A stretch of 64,000 bases of DNA, taken from contig JAJZTQ010000010.1 of the NCBI GenBank assembly GCA_021848825.1, positions 1 to 64,000 on the forward strand, written 5' to 3'. Positions 53,929 through 63,544 of this stretch are shown here, piece by piece. How positions within the stretch are numbered: position 1 is the first letter of the stretch; each line of letters starts with the position of its first letter. The translations under genes and the position numbers were made by a program. The notes under the pieces are model-generated. The model was not told where the DNA came from. It did not search any database and saw only the letters and a program-made list of their open reading frames with translations. This DNA is from Pseudomonadota bacterium (lineage in GTDB: Bacteria > Pseudomonadota > Gammaproteobacteria > Burkholderiales > JABEVD01).

Positions 53929-55005
53929 TTAGAACCGGATATGCGTGGAAGCATTGAGGTTTGCACGGGAACCGCGCCAATCGTCAACCAGATACTTGGT
54001 GAAGGGCAATTCGGTCTTCTCGAAGAAACGCGGCCAGCCGATGCGCTCGACCCAGTCGGAGAGCCTCTCCCAGGGTCTTGCATCACTCTTGTAGACATGG
54101 AGGATCCGCTTCACCACCTCGCCCACTTCGGTCCAGCGGGGAGGATTGTTGGGAAGACCGGATGCCACCATCTTCATGAAAGTCGGCTTGGCGCGCGCAT
54201 TCGAATTCTTTCCGCCGACCCAGATCGCGATCTTCGAGTATTCGGGATCGTTGATCTGCATCGGTGGGCAGGGGGGATAGCAGGCGCCGCAGCAAACGCA
54301 CTTCGTCTCATCCACTTCCAGAGAAGGTTTGCCGTTGACGAGCGCAGGCCTGATTGCAGCAACAGGGCAGCGCGCCACGACAGCAGGACGCTCGCAGACG
54401 TTGGCGACGAGATCATGGTTGATCTTGGGCGGCTTGGTATGCTGGACGATGATCGCGATGTCAGCCTGCCCGCCGCAATTGATTTCGCAGCAGGAAGTGG
54501 AAAGATGAACGCGGTTGGGCATCTCTTCCTTCTTGAATTCGTCGATCAGATCATCCATCAGCGACTTGACCACGCCCGATGCGTCCGTTCCAGGAATGTC
54601 GCAATGCAGCCATCCCTGGGTATGAGCGATCATCGAAACGGAGTTTCCGGTGCCACCCACGGGGAAGCCGTTTGCTTCGAGCTCGGCGATGAGCGGCGCA
54701 ACCTTGGTCTCGTCCGACACCATGAATTCGATGTTCGAACGGATGGTGAAGCGCACATGGCCTTCGGCGAACCTGTCAGCGATGTCGCAAAGCTTCCTGA
54801 TGGTATAGACATCCATCTGCCGCTGCGTGCCCGCCCTGACAGACCAGACCTGGTCCCCGCTATGGGAGACATGGTGAAGGACGCCAGGACGCGGACGGTC
54901 ATGGTATTTCCAGTTGCCATAGTTCTTGATCAGCGTGGGATGCAAGAACTGCTTGTTGTCCGGCACGCCGCTCTCTACGGGCCGGCGCAATTGGGTCTGA
55001 GACAT
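53929..55005 (-). CDS. dsrB: Reverse dissimilatory sulfite reductase beta subunit
   Basis: 358 aa. Sirohaem/4Fe-4S cysteines in STSCCEINCGG and CERPAVVARC, and ferredoxin domain CVCCGACYPPCPPM. Forms the alpha2beta2 enzyme with DsrA, working oxidatively here to release sulfite from DsrC-bound sulfur. Confidence 0.97.
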   Translation of the reverse strand: MSQTQLRRPVESGVPDNKQFLHPTLIKNYGNWKYHDRPRPGVLHHVSHSGDQVWSVRAGTQRQMDVYTIRKLCDIADRFAEGHVRFTIRSNIEFMVSDETKVAPLIAELEANGFPVGGTGNSVSMIAHTQGWLHCDIPGTDASGVVKSLMDDLIDEFKKEEMPNRVHLSTSCCEINCGGQADIAIIVQHTKPPKINHDLVANVCERPAVVARCPVAAIRPALVNGKPSLEVDETKCVCCGACYPPCPPMQINDPEYSKIAIWVGGKNSNARAKPTFMKMVASGLPNNPPRWTEVGEVVKRILHVYKSDARPWERLSDWVERIGWPRFFEKTELPFTKYLVDDWRGSRANLNASTHIRF

Positions 55006-55016
55006 TGTCTATTCTC

Positions 55017-56306
55017 CTAGGCTTGCTTGGCTTTGATTTTTGCGACTTCCTCGTCCCAGCCGTCAGTCCTGACATAAGGATTCATCCTGGGGCTGGAAAC
55101 CATGTTGGGATCGACATCGATTCCCATCGCGTCGAGGAAATTCACCAGGCCGATACGCTCGATCATCTCGCCAGTGCGCTCGTGCTCCAGCGCATTTTCA
55201 GCGAAGAAGTCGATGATGCGCTGACCGAGATCGACCAGCTCTTCCCTGTCCTCATCCGTCTCGAGCTTCATGAACGGCACAACGACGGTTCCCATCAGGT
55301 CGCCGATCTTGAGCGTACGCTTGCCGCCCACCAGTATCGTGGCGCCCTTGTCTTTTCCGGGCGAAAGCGCGCCGGTCATGACATTGATGCAGTGCATGCA
55401 GCGCACGCAGTCGTGGTTGTCGATTTCGACGGCATGCGTGTCGTTCACCGCCACGCTGGAGATGTGCTCGCCCTTGTTGACATCCTTTATTTCCTTCAAC
55501 CGCACGGCCTTGGTCGGGCAACGCGCAACCACGTCATTGACGAGTTCATTCATGCCGTGTTTTTCGAACCATTTGCGAGCCAAGGCCTCATCCGTCCGGA
55601 TGTTGTCGCGCCATGTTCCGATCACCGCCATGTCGGCACGCTGGATCGAGTTCATGCAGTCGTTGGGGCAACCCGAAAACTTGAACTTGAACTTGTATGG
55701 AAGGGATGGACGATGGATGTCATCGACAAAAGTATTGAGCACGACCCGATGAGCAGCAGCCTCGTCGTAGCAGGACTGCTCGCAGCGAGCAGCACCGACG
55801 CATGACATGGAGGTGCGGACTGCAGGGCCTGCGCCGCCCAGATCGAACCCGAGCTCGTTGATTTCGTCGAATGCGCCCTGAACATTATCGGTCGTGGCGC
55901 CCTGGAACATGATGTCGCCTGATTGACCGTGGAATGCGATCAGGCCCGAGCCGTGACGCTCCCAGATGTCGCACATCTTCCTGAGGACATCGGTGTTGTA
56001 ATGCATGCCTGCAGGAGGCTGCACCCTGAGGGTGTGAAATTCTGCAGCGTCCTTGTAGATGGGCTCGCCGTTGTCGTCCTTGAGCTCGGTGAAGCGGGGA
56101 ATGATGCCGCCGCCGTATCCGAAAACGCCAACCGTGCCGCCTTTCCAGTAACCCTTCTTGGTTTGGTAAGACGTCTCAAGCTGACCCAGGAGGTCAACAG
56201 CCATGTCCTTATCCTGAGCCAAACGTTTCAAGCCCGTCACAAAGCTGGGCCACGGGCCTTTCTCGAGTTCGTCGAGATTCGGCGTGTCATGCAGTTTCTT
56301 AGCCAT
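55017..56306 (-). CDS. dsrA: Reverse dissimilatory sulfite reductase alpha subunit
   Basis: 429 aa. Cys at about 169, 175, 179 (SCVGAARCEQSC) and 213, 217 (SGCPNDC) bind the 4Fe-4S/sirohaem; ferredoxin domain CVRCMHC near residue 300. First gene of dsrABEFHCMKLJOPN. The Shine-Dalgarno is GTAGGAGGA. No dsrR/dsrS are adjacent. It diverges from the orf71/cas6-like operon. Confidence 0.98.
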   Translation of the reverse strand: MAKKLHDTPNLDELEKGPWPSFVTGLKRLAQDKDMAVDLLGQLETSYQTKKGYWKGGTVGVFGYGGGIIPRFTELKDDNGEPIYKDAAEFHTLRVQPPAGMHYNTDVLRKMCDIWERHGSGLIAFHGQSGDIMFQGATTDNVQGAFDEINELGFDLGGAGPAVRTSMSCVGAARCEQSCYDEAAAHRVVLNTFVDDIHRPSLPYKFKFKFSGCPNDCMNSIQRADMAVIGTWRDNIRTDEALARKWFEKHGMNELVNDVVARCPTKAVRLKEIKDVNKGEHISSVAVNDTHAVEIDNHDCVRCMHCINVMTGALSPGKDKGATILVGGKRTLKIGDLMGTVVVPFMKLETDEDREELVDLGQRIIDFFAENALEHERTGEMIERIGLVNFLDAMGIDVDPNMVSSPRMNPYVRTDGWDEEVAKIKAKQA

Positions 56307-56430
56307 GATTCCTCCTACAAGTAAAATTGTTTGGAAAAGTCCTTTCGAACCGTCGGCGATCTTGGTCGCCTGTATTCTAGACGCTCCGCCTGGCGTATAT
56401 TAGACAAGCCTGATAGTTCTATGTAAACTA

Positions 56431-56498
56431 CCCTTCCGGGTTATGAATCATCCCCCCTATAGGCTATAGACGGTTTAGGCTTGCGTCGCGCTCAATAT
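56431..56498 (+). promoter_or_regulatory. Twin CCC-N5-GGY-TAT promoter, copy A (before orf71/cas6-like operon; dsrA divergent)
   Basis: Two co-oriented sites CCCTTCCGGGTTAT (56431-56444) and CCCCTATAGGCTAT (56454-56467), 23 bp apart. The second extends to TATAGAC; 21 bp after it lies CAATAT (56493-56498), about 57 bp before the orf71 ATG. The same architecture precedes tusA-dsrE2 and the tauE operon. It may also affect dsrA, 125 bp away. Confidence 0.75.
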
Positions 56499-56555: not shown

Positions 56556-56771
56556 ATGACGCAAATCAACGAAATTGAGAAGTTCAGGATACCACTTGGC
56601 GGGCAGGAAATCGAATTGCAGCAGATCGATTTTGCAGAAGGCGGCATGAGCATGCTGCGCATTCGCATCAGGGAAGGCAAGCGCTTCACCATTTTCGATA
56701 TCGACCCTGTTACAGCCGGGCAATGGGCAGATGCGATGAAGAACTGGGCGGAGTCCGTCAATGGCAAGTGA
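56556..56771 (+). CDS. Hypothetical 71-aa protein heading the cas6-like sulfur operon
   Basis: Small soluble beta-rich protein (FRIPLGGQEIELQQIDFAEG; TIFDIDPVTAGQWADAMKNW). No family is recognised. Its stop overlaps the cas6-like start by 11 bp, so the two are coupled. Confidence 0.65.
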   Translation: MTQINEIEKFRIPLGGQEIELQQIDFAEGGMSMLRIRIREGKRFTIFDIDPVTAGQWADAMKNWAESVNGK

Positions 56772-57354
56772 AATCACCGACATCGTTTTCGATCTCGAAG
56801 GGAATTTCCTGCCGGAGGGATATGGGGCTCTGCTCTGGAAGGAATTGGTCCTCGCCCTTCCCTGGCTTGAAAACCAGAATCCTGCCGGCATCCTTCCGAT
56901 AAAAGGGGCATCGAGCGGAAAAGGACTTCTTCTGCCGAGACGCGCCAAGCTGGCATTGCGCATCCCCGCAGAATTTTTCAGAAATGCGCTCGACCTCGAG
57001 GGAAAGACCATCGAGGTAGGCGAAAGCACGCTCAAAATCGGCCGGGGAAAAGAAAGACGGATCGAGGCCTACCCGACCCTGAATTCCCATTTCGTCGTCA
57101 GCGAAATGGACGAGACCGATTTTCTGCACGATGCTGAAGAAAAGATGGGGGAGCTGGGGATTGCCTGCAAATTGATCTGCGGAAAGCACCAGGCTCTGAA
57201 ATATGGCACCGAAACCCTTTCCGGATACAGCCTCGTCGCCTATGACCTGAAGCCGCCAGGATCGATCAGGCTGCAGCATTCCGGGCTTGGGTCCCATCGC
57301 CACATCGGATGCGGCTTCTTCGTCCCGCACAAGACGATAGCAGGACTTGAATGA
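56761..57354 (+). CDS. Cas6/Cmx6-like RAMP-fold protein (197 aa), no CRISPR
   Basis: Resembles the Cas6 type known as Cmx6 (type I-MYXAN): a beta-strand start DIVFDLEGNFLPEGYGALLW, GILPIKGASSGKG, LKIGRGKERRIEAYPTL, and the C-terminal Gly-rich loop LGSHRHIGCGFFVPH. Such proteins process CRISPR RNA. Here there is no repeat array or cas gene; the neighbours are sulfur-relay genes. The identity rests on pattern recognition. An RNA-binding role in sulfur-gene control or tRNA thiolation is speculative. Confidence 0.65.
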   Translation: MASEITDIVFDLEGNFLPEGYGALLWKELVLALPWLENQNPAGILPIKGASSGKGLLLPRRAKLALRIPAEFFRNALDLEGKTIEVGESTLKIGRGKERRIEAYPTLNSHFVVSEMDETDFLHDAEEKMGELGIACKLICGKHQALKYGTETLSGYSLVAYDLKPPGSIRLQHSGLGSHRHIGCGFFVPHKTIAGLE

Positions 57355-57380
57355 TTTTTGACTGTTTGGAGGATAAGAAA

Positions 57381-57710
57381 ATGACATATCATATAAATGG
57401 AGTTGACGTTGAGACCGATGACGATGGCTATCTGCTCGAAGCCGATTTCAGCAAGGAAGCCGTCGAAGTCATCGCAGCGGCCGAAGGCATCGCGCTTACC
57501 GAAAACCACTGGAAAATCGTCGACTACATGCGGGAAGAATATCGCGAAAATGGCCATACCCCGAATTTCAGGAACATGCTGAAGGGTGTTCAGGAATTCT
57601 GGAGTGACGCAGACAGCAAGGCGCTTTACGACCTCTTCCCGATGGGTCCCGCAAAGCAGGGGGCGAAGATCGCCGGACTGCCCCAGCCCTATGGAAAAGG
57701 AGGCTACTGA
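57381..57710 (+). CDS. rspA: DsrC-family protein without cysteines (RspA type)
   Basis: 109 aa from MTYHINGVDVETDDDGYLLE (GGAGGA Shine-Dalgarno). The DsrC/TusE fold ends FPMGPAKQGAKIAGLPQPYG, where both C-terminal cysteines of true DsrC are replaced. There is no Cys at all. DsrC homologues lacking both are called RspA and are thought to be regulatory. The canonical DsrC is 4.8 kb away. Confidence 0.85.
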   Translation: MTYHINGVDVETDDDGYLLEADFSKEAVEVIAAAEGIALTENHWKIVDYMREEYRENGHTPNFRNMLKGVQEFWSDADSKALYDLFPMGPAKQGAKIAGLPQPYGKGGY

Positions 57711-57719
57711 GAAAACATC

Positions 57720-58199
57720 ATGACCAAGTTGAATGCGAATGTCGTGCTCGACATGAAAGGGGTCACCTGCCCTGGCCCCATACTCGGCGCGAAGAAGATG
57801 GTGGACGAACTGGAGAGCGGACAGATCCTGCTTCTCATCTCGGATTGCCCGGGTACACCGGACGATCTCTTCGCCTGGGCGAGGCAGACCGACAACCAGA
57901 TTCTCGAAAGCGCGAAATTGCCAGGCGGCGGAACAGGATATTACATCCTCAAGGGAAAGGGGCATGAATTCAAGGCCAACGTATTGCTCGACATACGCGG
58001 CGTGCTCTGCCCCGGCCCCATCGTTGAAGCCAAGAAGCTCCTCAACGGGATGCAGACAGGCGAAATCCTGAAGCTGACCAGCAACTGCCCCGGCATAAGC
58101 TCGGACATAGAAGGATGGGCCAAGGTCACCGGTGAAACGATACTGGAGTCGATCGAGATCGCGCCGGGCGAATACGATTTCTACATCCGGAAGGGATGA
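57720..58199 (+). CDS. Tandem TusA-TusA sulfur carrier (159 aa)
   Basis: Two complete TusA domains: residues 1-80 (LDMKGVTCPGPILGAKKMVD) and 84-159 (LDIRGVLCPGPIVEAKKLLN), each with the Cys-Pro-X-Pro sulfur-carrying Cys. Single-domain TusA is usual (one is at 61551). The fusion could carry two persulfides or bridge partners. Starts 9 bp after rspA. Confidence 0.9.
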   Translation: MTKLNANVVLDMKGVTCPGPILGAKKMVDELESGQILLLISDCPGTPDDLFAWARQTDNQILESAKLPGGGTGYYILKGKGHEFKANVLLDIRGVLCPGPIVEAKKLLNGMQTGEILKLTSNCPGISSDIEGWAKVTGETILESIEIAPGEYDFYIRKG

Positions 58200-58792
58200 T
58201 GAGGGTAAAGAGCCGCTGGTTCAAGGCAGAACGCGAGAAAACGCCTGAAGAAATCGCAGGCGCCATGGCTTTCATCGTCTGGAAGATCGCACAGAACGGC
58301 CTCAAGAACCTGAGAAGCGCCGACTACGAGATCGAGGCAGGTCCCCGGTATTTCGACTACACCGAGGAATTCCTGATCTTCCTCGTCCAGGTCGCCGACA
58401 GGATCGCGTTTGACAAGCTGGATCAGGATGCGAGGACCGCTTTCACGACGGAACTCGCCCTGAGGGTCGCGGGAAATTTCGCCGAAAACAAGGGAGACAT
58501 CCTCGGGCTTTCCCATGCTTCATGCAAAAGCGAATTCATAGACCGCTACAACGAGAGGACCAACGTCTACGCCGAGTGCGGATTCAACGACGAAGGCCCG
58601 GATTTCGCCTTCTATCGCTATCTCGGACATTGTCTGCTCGAATTCTGCGATGAGCGGGACAGAAGCTGGATCGTCGACAGGATCATGCAGATCGAGGCGC
58701 CTGAAGGCGTCTCTACCGTGAGCCGCGCCATGAAGGGGCTGCTGGATACGGAACCTTCCCACAGGCTGGGGTCGGGAATAGGACCGGACTGA
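58196..58792 (+). CDS. Hypothetical protein (198 aa)
   Basis: Mostly helical soluble protein (EEIAGAMAFIVWKIAQNGLK; FIDRYNERTNVYAECGFND; GHCLLEFCDERDRSW) with four cysteines. No family is recognised. Overlaps the TusA fusion (ATGA) and meets the dioxygenase start at 58792, so it is firmly in the operon. Confidence 0.65.
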   Translation: MMRVKSRWFKAEREKTPEEIAGAMAFIVWKIAQNGLKNLRSADYEIEAGPRYFDYTEEFLIFLVQVADRIAFDKLDQDARTAFTTELALRVAGNFAENKGDILGLSHASCKSEFIDRYNERTNVYAECGFNDEGPDFAFYRYLGHCLLEFCDERDRSWIVDRIMQIEAPEGVSTVSRAMKGLLDTEPSHRLGSGIGPD

Positions 58793-59619
58793 TGTTCCAG
58801 GATCATGGCGCTTACCTGAAATGGCGCGAAAAGAAGTTCGACACCCATCCCGGATCAATCGACGAACTGATCGTCGAAGTCGACGATCTCGAAAATCTCA
58901 GCATGGCTGAACATGAAGCTATCATGGACCGCATCGCCAGAGCCAACATGGCGATCTATGTGAGCCGCAATCCGCTGCCTGACTTGAAGCGTTTCGCAAG
59001 GCAATTCGGCCTGGAAAACCTGGATGCCAACTGGCTTTCCGGCGAAGACGGTATTTCCAGGATAGAGGTCACGGAAGGCGGGAAGGGTTACATTCCGTAT
59101 ACCAACAAGCCGATAAAATGGCATACCGACGGTTATTACAACCCACCCGAGAGAAAAATCCGCGCGATGCTGCTGCATTGCGCTCAAAGCGCTGCTGACG
59201 GGGGGGAAAACAGGCTGATGGATCACGAAATGCTCTATTGCCTCTTGCGCGATCAGAACCCTGGCTACATCGAAGCTTTGTCAAGGCCGGACGCCATGAA
59301 GATCCCGGAAAGGACGGACGAGAACGAAGTAGCGAGGAAGGAAGAAACCGGTCCCGTGTTTTCCTTCGACGAACAGGATCATCTTCACATGCGCTACACG
59401 GCGAGAACGCGGTCCATAGAATGGAAGCAAGACCCGCTCACGCTCGCTGCAGTATCCGCACTCGAATCCATCCTCGCCTTCCCTTCCCCCTACATCTTCA
59501 GAACGAGGCTGGAGTCCGGCATGGGCCTCATCTGCAACAACGTGCTTCACGACAGGTCGGGCTTCGAGGGAAGCGACCGGCTTCTCTTCCGCGCAAGGTA
59601 TTACGACAGAATCAGATAA
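58792..59619 (+). CDS. TauD/TfdA-family Fe(II)/2-oxoglutarate dioxygenase
   Basis: 275 aa. Iron site in KWHTDGYY (His-X-Asp) and distal His in NVLHDRSGF; Arg in LLFRARYYD for 2-oxoglutarate. TauD releases sulfite from taurine, and a substrate such as an organosulfonate would fit the sulfur context, but no transporter is present. Last gene of the operon. Confidence 0.85.
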   Translation: MFQDHGAYLKWREKKFDTHPGSIDELIVEVDDLENLSMAEHEAIMDRIARANMAIYVSRNPLPDLKRFARQFGLENLDANWLSGEDGISRIEVTEGGKGYIPYTNKPIKWHTDGYYNPPERKIRAMLLHCAQSAADGGENRLMDHEMLYCLLRDQNPGYIEALSRPDAMKIPERTDENEVARKEETGPVFSFDEQDHLHMRYTARTRSIEWKQDPLTLAAVSALESILAFPSPYIFRTRLESGMGLICNNVLHDRSGFEGSDRLLFRARYYDRIR

Positions 59620-59735
59620 AAACCCGCCATACCGGTGCCTGGTCTTGAATTATCAGGTGATAATTCAAGACCAGGCACCGCTTTTTTCAAGGCCAGGCAC
59701 CGCTTTTTTTGACAGAATCAAATAAAAAACCCGTC
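59605..59735. repeat. Hairpin element flanked by 25-bp direct repeats
   Basis: A perfect inverted repeat with 23-bp arms (59633-59655 / 59658-59680; starts CGGTGCCTGGTCTTGAATT) is followed by CTTTTTT and a second partial copy of the right arm (59688-59710). GACAGAATCA-(A/G)-ATAAAA and following bases occur at 59605 (inside the tauD end) and again at 59711. It terminates the operon and resembles a REP-like mobile palindrome. Confidence 0.65.
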
Positions 59736-61068: not shown

Positions 61069-61536
61069 TCAAACGAACAGGCAGATATCCGTGTCACCGG
61101 CGAATTCCATGAAGGTTGCCGCACCGCCGAATTCTATTCCGTCGATGAAATCTTTCTTGTCGAATTCGAAAAGATCGACGGTCATCTGGCAGGCGACGAA
61201 TTTCACGTCCGCTTCCTGGCAGAGGTTGCGAAGCTCTTCGAGCGAAGCAACCCCCTTCTTTTTCAGTTTGTCCTTCATCATCATCGTCGCCATGGATTCC
61301 ATGCCCGGCAATACCTGGACGAGAACCGGCATGGGAACAGGCATCGGCATGGCAGGATTGGCAAGCGGGCTGATCTTCACGTCGGAAAGATCCTTCTTCA
61401 GGAGTTGCAGTCCGTAGAAAGTGAAAAAGATCTGCACGTCGTAGCCAAGGGCTGCAGCCGTGGAGCCGAGGATGAAAGGCGGATAGGCCATGTCCAGCGT
61501 GCCCTTGGTTGCGATGATCGCCATTTTCTTGGTCAT
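61069..61536 (-). CDS. dsrE2: DsrE2-type sulfurtransferase (DsrE/F/H-like)
   Basis: 155 aa. Begins MTKKMAIIATKGTLDMAYPP; conserved cysteines near CQEADVKFVACQM; a Met/Pro-rich loop (NPAMPMPVPMPVLVQ) that may be membrane-associated. DsrE2 pairs with TusA in many sulfur oxidisers to route sulfane sulfur to the Dsr pathway. Start is 14 bp after tusA. Confidence 0.88.
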   Translation of the reverse strand: MTKKMAIIATKGTLDMAYPPFILGSTAAALGYDVQIFFTFYGLQLLKKDLSDVKISPLANPAMPMPVPMPVLVQVLPGMESMATMMMKDKLKKKGVASLEELRNLCQEADVKFVACQMTVDLFEFDKKDFIDGIEFGGAATFMEFAGDTDICLFV

Positions 61537-61550
61537 GAGAATATCCCCTG

Positions 61551-61778
61551 TTACTTCTTCTTCATGAAAAATGTGTATTCGCCGTTTGCCTCGGATTGTT
61601 CAAGCAACTCGTTGCCGGTCTGCTTGGCGAAAGCCTGCATGTCCTTGACGGATCCGCAGTCAGTCGACACGACCTTGAGCACTTCTCCCGAAGCCATGTC
61701 GGCAAGCGACTTCTTCGTCTTCAAAATGGGCAGAGGGCAGTTGAGGCCGCGAGCGTCGAGTTCTTTCTGAAAATTCAT
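61551..61778 (-). CDS. tusA: TusA-family sulfur carrier protein
   Basis: 75 aa from MNFQKELDARGLNCPLPILK (Cys-Pro-X-Pro). Shine-Dalgarno CGGAG upstream of the chosen start. Partner of DsrE2; sulfur donor to DsrEFH. Confidence 0.93.
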   Translation of the reverse strand: MNFQKELDARGLNCPLPILKTKKSLADMASGEVLKVVSTDCGSVKDMQAFAKQTGNELLEQSEANGEYTFFMKKK

Positions 61779-61842: not shown

Positions 61843-61911
61843 CTATTAGGCGGAATTTGCCATTCACGCGTCTATAGCCGAATCGGGTAATGCAGCCATA
61901 ACCCTCAAGGG
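61843..61911 (-). promoter_or_regulatory. Twin CCC-N5-GGY-TAT promoter, copy B (tusA-dsrE2)
   Basis: Minus strand: CCCTTGAGGGTTAT (61911-61898) and CCCGATTCGGCTAT (61887-61874), 24 bp apart; the second extends to TATAGAC, then 21 bp, then TAATAG (61848-61843), about 64 bp before the tusA ATG. Confidence 0.8.
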
Positions 61912-61971: not shown

Positions 61972-62385
61972 TCAATGCTTCCCTGATATCAATCCGGAAG
62001 CAGCGAGAACCAGGATGCCGATCTCGAGTGCGCAGATGGCAATATAGACCCAGTCCTTCCTTTTCGCATAGATAGGCATGACAGCCATGATGCAGAATAT
62101 AGAGCATCCTGAAAGAATCGCAATGCCGATGAAACTGGCGAGATCGCCGTTTCCGAGCATTTCTATCCATCCCCAGCCCTTCGGCATCCCTGTCACCTTC
62201 AGGAATTCCTCTGCAGGCTTGTTCCAGACCTGGGGCAACTCGGAAAGCGGAATCCTGGCAGGCAGAATGCCGAATATATAGGCAATGAATGTGCCGATCA
62301 GGCACAGGAAGCCGGCGAGGGTGCTCCAGTGGAGCCAGTCCGCATAGCGCAGCTGCTCCGATTGCTGCATTTCCTTCATGTCCAT
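61972..62385 (-). CDS. Membrane protein linked to the TauE exporter (137 aa)
   Basis: Start placed at MDMKEMQQSEQLRYADWLHW (62385), overlapping the tauE stop by 10 bp. Three to four hydrophobic segments (STLAGFLCLIGTFIAYIFGI; SFIGIAILSGCSIFCIMAVM; YIAICALEIGILVLAASGLI). DUF1634-like proteins often accompany TauE-family exporters; the match is only positional. Confidence 0.65.
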   Translation of the reverse strand: MDMKEMQQSEQLRYADWLHWSTLAGFLCLIGTFIAYIFGILPARIPLSELPQVWNKPAEEFLKVTGMPKGWGWIEMLGNGDLASFIGIAILSGCSIFCIMAVMPIYAKRKDWVYIAICALEIGILVLAASGLISGKH

Positions 62386-63293
62386 ACCCCGAGCCCTTTC
62401 AGCAACGCCCCGACGCCTGATACGAAAAGCATGGTGATGACGAGACGCCTGATCACGGATGCATTGAGCACGGACAAAAGATGAGCGCCTATCCTGGCGC
62501 CTATCATCATGCCCACAACGGAAGGCACTGCGATGATCGGCAAGATCGCGCCATTGTCCAGGTAATACCACGTCGCCGAAGAGCTCGCCGTGGTCAGGAT
62601 CAGGCTGGATGTCCCTGCAGCGACCTTGAGCGGTGCGCCCATCAGAAGATTGAGAACGGGGACGTTGGCCCAGCCTGCGCCCACGCCGAAAAGCCCGCCC
62701 AGGAAGCCGATCACGAGAAACATCGCCATGCCCAGAGGCGTGCGATGAACATGCCAGTTCACATCGTCGCCGGAAACCGCGTCCCTGAAAACCCCTTGTA
62801 TTCGCAGCGCGCTGGAAAGGGAATCAGCCGCAGGCACATGCGGAAACTCCGACTTCTTGGCCGCAGCCATCAGCGCGACGATGCCGAGTATGGTGAGCCC
62901 GAGGGCGATCTGGACGACATTGGAAGGCAATGCGAGCCCCACCATCGCGCCGCCTATTGCGCTGATGGATGCCCCGAATGCGAGCGGCATGGCAAGTCTG
63001 AGATTGGCAAGCCCCCCCTTCAACAGCGACGGACCCGCAGCAAGTGAACTCGCGAGCGCGACAAGCAGCCCTGCCCCTCGAACGAAATCGAGGTGGAAGG
63101 GAAAGAAGCTTCCCACGATGGGCACGAACAGCACCCCTCCTCCGACGCCCGCAGGAACGGCGACAATGCCCAGAAAGAAACAGACCACGAAAAGCGCGAG
63201 CGGCCATATCCACCAGGTATCAGGCGAGGCTGAAGCCGCTGCAAATGCCGGATGAGCGATGAAAAGCAGTGTGAAAAAAAGCAGGCGCTTCAT
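62376..63293 (-). CDS. TauE/SafE-family sulfite/sulfonate exporter
   Basis: 305 aa with about eight to nine helices after a signal-like start (MKRLLFFTLLFIAHPAFA). GVGGGVLFVPIV, GFLGGLFGVGAGWANVPVLN are the paired family motifs. In this organism it probably exports sulfite made by rDsrAB (inference). Confidence 0.9.
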   Translation of the reverse strand: MKRLLFFTLLFIAHPAFAAASASPDTWWIWPLALFVVCFFLGIVAVPAGVGGGVLFVPIVGSFFPFHLDFVRGAGLLVALASSLAAGPSLLKGGLANLRLAMPLAFGASISAIGGAMVGLALPSNVVQIALGLTILGIVALMAAAKKSEFPHVPAADSLSSALRIQGVFRDAVSGDDVNWHVHRTPLGMAMFLVIGFLGGLFGVGAGWANVPVLNLLMGAPLKVAAGTSSLILTTASSSATWYYLDNGAILPIIAVPSVVGMMIGARIGAHLLSVLNASVIRRLVITMLFVSGVGALLKGLGVWT

Positions 63294-63476: not shown

Positions 63477-63544
63477 CTATTAGGCGCAATACCGGGTCAC
63501 CATGTCTATAACCGCATCGGGGGGGTGGATATAACCCATATGGG
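63477..63544 (-). promoter_or_regulatory. Twin CCC-N5-GGY-TAT promoter, copy C (tauE operon)
   Basis: Minus strand: CCCATATGGGTTAT (63544-63531) and CCCGATGCGGTTAT (63521-63508), 23 bp apart; the second extends to TATAGAC, then 21 bp, then TAATAG (63482-63477), about 52 bp before the 44-aa ORF. The opposite strand leads to the GAF-protein gene. Confidence 0.8.

Follow-up and report, generated by a model that had tools for sequence, protein, structure and literature searches.

The oxidative (reverse) Dsr pathway is central to sulfur oxidation in many bacteria, and its sulfur loading and regulation are poorly known. Here we describe a window of 64,000 nucleotides from a Burkholderiales bacterium (GTDB JABEVD01; GenBank GCA_021848825.1, contig JAJZTQ010000010.1, positions 1 to 64,000), in which six open reading frames (ORFs) run head to tail from 56556 to 59619: a DUF6967 protein (orf71), a Cas6-family protein, the DsrC paralogue RspA, a tandem TusA-TusA, Orf198 and an Fe(II)/2-oxoglutarate (2OG) dioxygenase. 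An earlier note on this DNA had described them as a packed operon divergent from dsrA, with overlaps or gaps under 30 bp, and all six are present as listed in Table 1, on the strand opposite dsrA and separated in order by -11, 26, 9, -4 and -1 bp, the largest gap being 26 bp. As in described oxidative Dsr clusters such as Allochromatium vinosum dsrABEFHCMKLJOPN, dsrAB is grouped with dsrEFH and dsrC next to the module, with an apparently full dsrMKLJOPN set further on, judged by reading translations rather than by hidden Markov model (HMM). Because the set was found only with the dsrA enzyme, the module probably contributes to the operation or control of sulfur oxidation by a route that has yet to be described.

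Table 1. Genes and sequence elements of the module and its surroundings in the window.
Feature	Position	Strand	Length (aa)	Assignment or note
orf71	56556..56771	+	71	DUF6967 (PF22295); Pfam
Cas6-family protein	56761..57354	+	197	PF09559 / TIGR02807; Pfam, NCBIfam
RspA-type DsrC paralogue	57381..57710	+	109	DsrC-family HMM
Tandem TusA-TusA	57720..58199	+	159	CPxP in both domains
Orf198	58196..58792	+	198	No family match
Fe(II)/2-oxoglutarate dioxygenase	58792..59619	+	275	PF02668; TauD-like
Operator-like palindrome	56428..56443	none		CTACCC-N4-GGGTTA, between dsrA and module
Promoter-like element	56438..56471	+		GGGTTAT-N17-GGCTATAGAC, facing module
Second copy of promoter element	61870..61904	-		Upstream of tusA-dsrE2
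One-mismatch copy of promoter element	63504..63537	-		Upstream of tauE
Terminator-like stem-loop	59633..59680	+		20-bp stem and T run, end of operon
dsrA	55017..56306	-		Divergent partner; 1.1e-154
dsrB	53929-55005			Followed by dsrE, dsrF, dsrH, dsrC
dsrE2	61069..61536	-		Putative operon with tusA (61551-61778)
tauE-like exporter	62376..63293	-		Third operon with shared promoter element

Within the order, the module genes were confined to genomes with dsrA. Strong dsrA was detected in 64 of 300 genomes sampled; Cas6 (PF09559) was present in 58 of these and in none of the ~236 genomes without dsrA (Fisher p ~1e-55, a value that ignores kinship). DUF6967 was found in 54 of the 300 genomes and Orf198 in 46 of the 240 searched for it, every one of them dsrA-positive. 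Only two dsrA-positive genomes (G122 and G145) had neither DUF6967 nor Cas6; the dsr contigs are broken or short in both, and G122 retains a partial Orf198. Comparison of 53 loci by tblastn showed that DUF6967, Cas6, RspA, a slot held here by TusA-TusA, Orf198 and the TauD-like oxygenase follow one another in this order, divergently from dsrA, in nearly all of them, and that the order is kept over ~27 genera. A scan of GTDB genomes returned 559 encoded relatives with the signature GCGxFxPHK of the Cas6-like protein, and in the best 80 of the 559 loci we found DUF6967 (79), divergent dsrA (77), RspA (76), Orf198 (74), a rhodanese (54) and tandem TusA (19). Carriers include records named Sulfuricella, Sulfuriferula, Thiobacillus, Hydrogenophilus, Tepidiphilus, Sideroxydans and Sulfurimicrobium. 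The earlier note had named missing co-occurrence in other genomes as grounds for refutation; this test did not refute the module, whose genes were found together elsewhere, in the same order and exclusively in the company of dsrA. The protein distances of all module members track those of DsrA (Spearman 0.37-0.72; 0 of 500 permutations as high), which is consistent with joint inheritance, although any co-inherited genes would show the same.

Outside the order, DUF6967 was detected in five sampled genomes. In four, the oxygenase and DUF6967 are next to a dsrA that reads the other way, and the fifth locus holds the same two genes, with no dsrA within the stretch read. Since the out-of-order loci have just these two module genes beside dsrA, they suggest that the oxygenase and DUF6967 are an older core to which the remaining genes were added later. 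Two of these loci (L098 8785-10706 and L100 8694-10785, turned so that dsrA is on the - strand) have the oxygenase, then an unnamed protein of 66-82 residues, DUF6967 and a gene that, by reading only, resembles sirohaem synthase.

The product of the cas6-like gene scored 171.6 bits against PF09559 (cut-off 26.7; 2.5e-50) and 125.1 bits against TIGR02807 (curated cut-off 98.85). Its sole relative among solved structures is a type I-B Cas6 (8fcj_B, profile 1e-33), from an entry that we take to be a CRISPR (clustered regularly interspaced short palindromic repeats)-associated transposase. Judged by its Pfam and NCBIfam scores, the protein is a true Cas6 homologue, which sharpens its first description as RNA-binding-like. 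Its C-terminal glycine-rich loop GLGxxRxxGCGxFxPHK is intact, with GxG..R..GCG invariant or almost so across 138 dsr-linked sequences. It shares this loop and the full-length sequence family with Cas6/Cmx6 of type I-MYXAN (TIGR02807) and of the type I-B transposase, but differs from them in having no cas genes nearby, in residues specific to the dsr clade (CG at 140-141, R61 and the PHK tail), and in a Tyr for His in this genus. The catalytic histidine of Cas6 lies just after the first beta-strand (PMC3150331); the putative equivalent is Tyr21 in the window protein, and among the 138 dsr-linked sequences this position carries His in 101, Tyr in 31 and Asn in 5, against His in 5/5 CRISPR-type relatives. 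Loss of the histidine makes cleavage less likely on sequence grounds, though still possible, because even CRISPR Cas6 proteins do not all keep it (PMC3150331). Tyr was found with tandem TusA 27 times and never with rhodanese alone, and His with rhodanese 79 times; the pairing of Tyr with tandem TusA may reflect shared ancestry.

The dsr loci showed no cas genes, and Cas1 was absent from 41 of the 58 Cas6-positive genomes, including that of the window (CRISPR arrays were not searched genome-wide). In a quick tree with a midpoint root, dsr-linked Cas6 proteins and five cyanobacterial plasmid relatives formed separate branches (Shimodaira-Hasegawa-like approximate likelihood ratio test 99), and cas3 adjoins 4/5 of the plasmid genes. 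A Gloeobacter plasmid Cas6 (L197 2974-5172) lies near a PAPS-reductase-family gene with no cas3 in the stretch seen. In Candidatus Parabeggiatoa (L191 8001-8615), a Cas6 with the PHK signature of the dsr clade stands alone, not beside dsr in the stretch examined. The neighboring orf71, which the earlier note had called unrecognised together with Orf198, matches DUF6967 (PF22295) at 9.8e-32; for Orf198 the description stands. DUF6967 and Cas6 are fused into one ORF in two genomes of one genus (L065 and L070), which suggests that the two proteins act together.

RspA belongs to the DsrC/TusE superfamily (PF04358, 6.7e-33), and its PDB matches are DsrC structures. It resembles the DsrC/TusE family (TIGR03342) in fold family and in its C-terminal arm, retained as AGLPxPxGKGGY, but it contains no Cys and has therefore lost both functional C-terminal cysteines of DsrC. 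The DsrC of the window ends in KQACKIAGLPKPTGCI and RspA in KQGAKIAGLPQPYGKGGY, so that the arm ends GKGGY where that of DsrC ends GCI. Among 59 relatives of RspA, 45 are Cys-free, and KGGY terminates nearly all. The name RspA goes with a putative regulatory role of Cys-less DsrC proteins, on which a search of open-licence papers returned nothing. The genome of the window encodes six DsrC-family proteins (contigs C21, C40, C41 and C27; loci L003-L006), of which the one on C40 has the C-terminal end FGSVA; the module at locus L062 contains a counterpart of this protein.

The fourth gene occupies a slot whose content varies. In TusA-TusA the CPxP motif is present in 25/25 second domains and in 22/22 first domains where these are present; in many other genera the slot is filled by a two-domain rhodanese of the 3-mercaptopyruvate sulfurtransferase type with the motif CGSGVTAC. 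Over the loci examined, tandem TusA was found in 24 and rhodanese in 32, with both in one locus. Each active-site motif is intact as in known TusA and 3-mercaptopyruvate-type sulfurtransferases, although here TusA is tandem and the two proteins interchange in one operon position. Because two unrelated sulfane-sulfur proteins occupy one place, there is good evidence, drawn from sequence, that the slot is for a putative sulfur carrier or donor. These active sites, with the linkage to dsrAB, tusA-dsrE2 and tauE, support the grouping of the genes as a sulfur-handling module.

The last gene encodes an Fe(II)/2OG dioxygenase with intact ligands, H111-x-D113...H253 together with R263 and R267 being conserved in 59/59 sequences. 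Its description as tauD-like holds at the superfamily level (2.3e-16), but a taurine role is unsupported: it did not match the TauD equivalog in NCBIfam, and all specific equivalogs there, including the nearest, TmpA and trimethyllysine hydroxylase, scored far under cut-off. The closest described relatives are the 2-trimethylaminoethylphosphonate (TmpA), trimethyllysine and gamma-butyrobetaine hydroxylases (42, 39 and 25 bits), and the only PDB match is TmpA (6npb, 3.7e-4). Compared with these enzymes, the module oxygenase is shorter and linked to dsrA.

The 2.74 Mb genome contains exactly two copies of the element GGGTTAT-N17/18-GNCTATANNC, one upstream of the module and the other upstream of tusA-dsrE2, and a reversed control gave no match. 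A promoter common to the operon, tusA-dsrE2 and tauE, as the earlier note had proposed, is thus exact for the first two, whereas the tauE copy appears only with one mismatch. The region between dsrA and DUF6967 is strongly conserved within the genus, and an ACCC-Nx-GGGT palindrome, with a spacer almost always of 4 or 5 bp, is present in 39/53 such regions against 1.15 expected from mononucleotide shuffles. The strict form TACCC-N4/5-GGGTA was found 19 times in dsrA/module intergenic regions and 0 times elsewhere in the same loci; this strict form was not seen next to dsrA in the out-of-order loci. In the dsrA leader (56335-56390, - strand), the genus conserves two short hairpins, of which the second has a 4-base loop. 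An Rfam search of the window returned only tmRNA and one tRNA.

We propose that the six genes form an accessory module dedicated to the oxidative Dsr pathway, which would tune sulfur flux into DsrAB, a reading to which we assign a probability of roughly 0.5. From linkage, exclusivity, gene order, active sites, cysteine loss, fusion and operator we infer the following mechanism. The module would be co-regulated with dsrAB, tusA-dsrE2 and tauE via the conserved ACCC-N4/5-GGGT type operator. The sulfur relay in oxidative Dsr runs via DsrEFH and DsrC (PMC3397948), and TusA-TusA, or the rhodanese that substitutes for it, would carry or donate sulfane sulfur to this relay. Because the DsrC arm occupies the DsrAB cavity (PMC3397948) and DsrC is credited with a putative regulatory role (PMC7787665, citing Venceslau 2014), RspA could be a sulfur-inert DsrC decoy whose arm docks at that cavity or at another DsrC partner; since it keeps the docking arm but cannot carry sulfur, it may gate or sense flux. 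The DUF6967-Cas6 pair may bind a structured RNA, whether tRNA or dsr mRNA, and tune expression; as Tyr replaces the His in this genus, the bound RNA would probably not be cleaved there. The oxygenase would add an O2-dependent modification to a pathway protein or small molecule, and all parts together would tune the flux. More tentatively, and with less confidence than in the accessory role itself, we suggest that a Cas6-family protein may have been permanently recruited from CRISPR into sulfur energy metabolism, where it would bind RNA with DUF6967 and, with the DsrC decoy, couple RNA-level control to DsrAB flux.

Several results weigh against an accessory module of this kind. First, the co-occurrence statistics take no account of phylogeny, and 6/64 dsrA-positive genomes have no Cas6. 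Second, the out-of-order loci retain only the oxygenase and DUF6967 beside dsrA, so that some versions do without Cas6, RspA and Orf198. Third, Orf198 had no credible match in Pfam, NCBIfam or PDB and, like DUF6967, has no fold assignment. Fourth, a regulator of the CsoR/CstR family (PF02583; as in sulfide operons of the Staphylococcus aureus cst type) was considered for the palindrome and rejected, no such protein being present in the genome of the window. Lastly, the idea that the dsrA leader holds a conserved hairpin as substrate for Cas6 was rejected: the structure is genus-specific, with one-sided (wobble) changes and no two-sided compensation, and no RNA target was found.

Alternatively, the module might make or regulate a sulfur or hydroxyl modification of RNA (tRNA), by analogy with the TusA-TusBCD-TusE-MnmA thiolation relay, with TusA or rhodanese supplying sulfur, Cas6-DUF6967 presenting the RNA and the oxygenase modifying it. 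Such a role would fit the joint presence of sulfur carriers and a DsrC/TusE-family protein with a Cas6 RNA-binding fold and an oxygenase, and also the DUF6967-Cas6 fusion, but we consider it unlikely, as RspA lacks any cysteine through which sulfur could be passed on, linkage to dsrA is strict, and the likely oldest part adjoins dsrA without Cas6. It is also rather improbable that this is a catabolic operon, in which the oxygenase would cleave or hydroxylate an organosulfonate or quaternary amine and sulfite or another product would enter Dsr or be exported by TauE. The intact active site, relatives that hydroxylate trimethylated amines or phosphonates, and the promoter element common to tauE speak for catabolism, but the module has no transporter or sulfonate uptake gene, the TauD match is at superfamily level with specific equivalogs far under cut-off, and Cas6, RspA and Orf198 would be left unexplained. 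The six proteins, linked here by sequence and genome context, could also be neighbors of unrelated function carried along with dsr; given an order kept in ~27 genera, the swap of tandem TusA for rhodanese, a natural fusion and a shared operator, we regard this as very improbable. That the Cas6-like gene serves CRISPR in trans beside dsr by chance, as its score over the curated cut-off and the His kept in 101/138 dsr-linked members might allow, was rejected on its dsrA-positive-only occurrence in the order and the frequent absence of Cas1, and is further opposed by the missing cas genes and by its branch apart from CRISPR-linked relatives.

To our knowledge, and from negative searches, the described dsr pathway does not include DUF6967, a Cas6-like protein, RspA, tandem TusA or rhodanese, Orf198 and an Fe/2OG oxygenase as a unit. 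Among open-licence papers we found nothing linking Cas6 or DUF6967 to dsr and no earlier report of the module, although it may be described elsewhere. The six-gene set is linked exclusively to dsrA, its operator is defined and its candidate roles are clear, and the accessory role proposed here is open to direct test. The set also places a cas gene family in a metabolic operon without CRISPR, so a "Cas6" annotation in sulfur oxidisers should not be taken as a sign of CRISPR immunity.

Two further observations concern dsrA and the terminator. A second, solitary dsrA with no dsrB nearby, ~69-77% identical to the DsrA of the window, was seen in several genomes of the order (L110-L115, in G145, G167, G088, G182, G062 and G243). 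At the end of the operon, the terminator stem CGGTGCCTGGTCTTGA recurs in part just 3' as caaggccaggcaccgctttttt (59633-59720).

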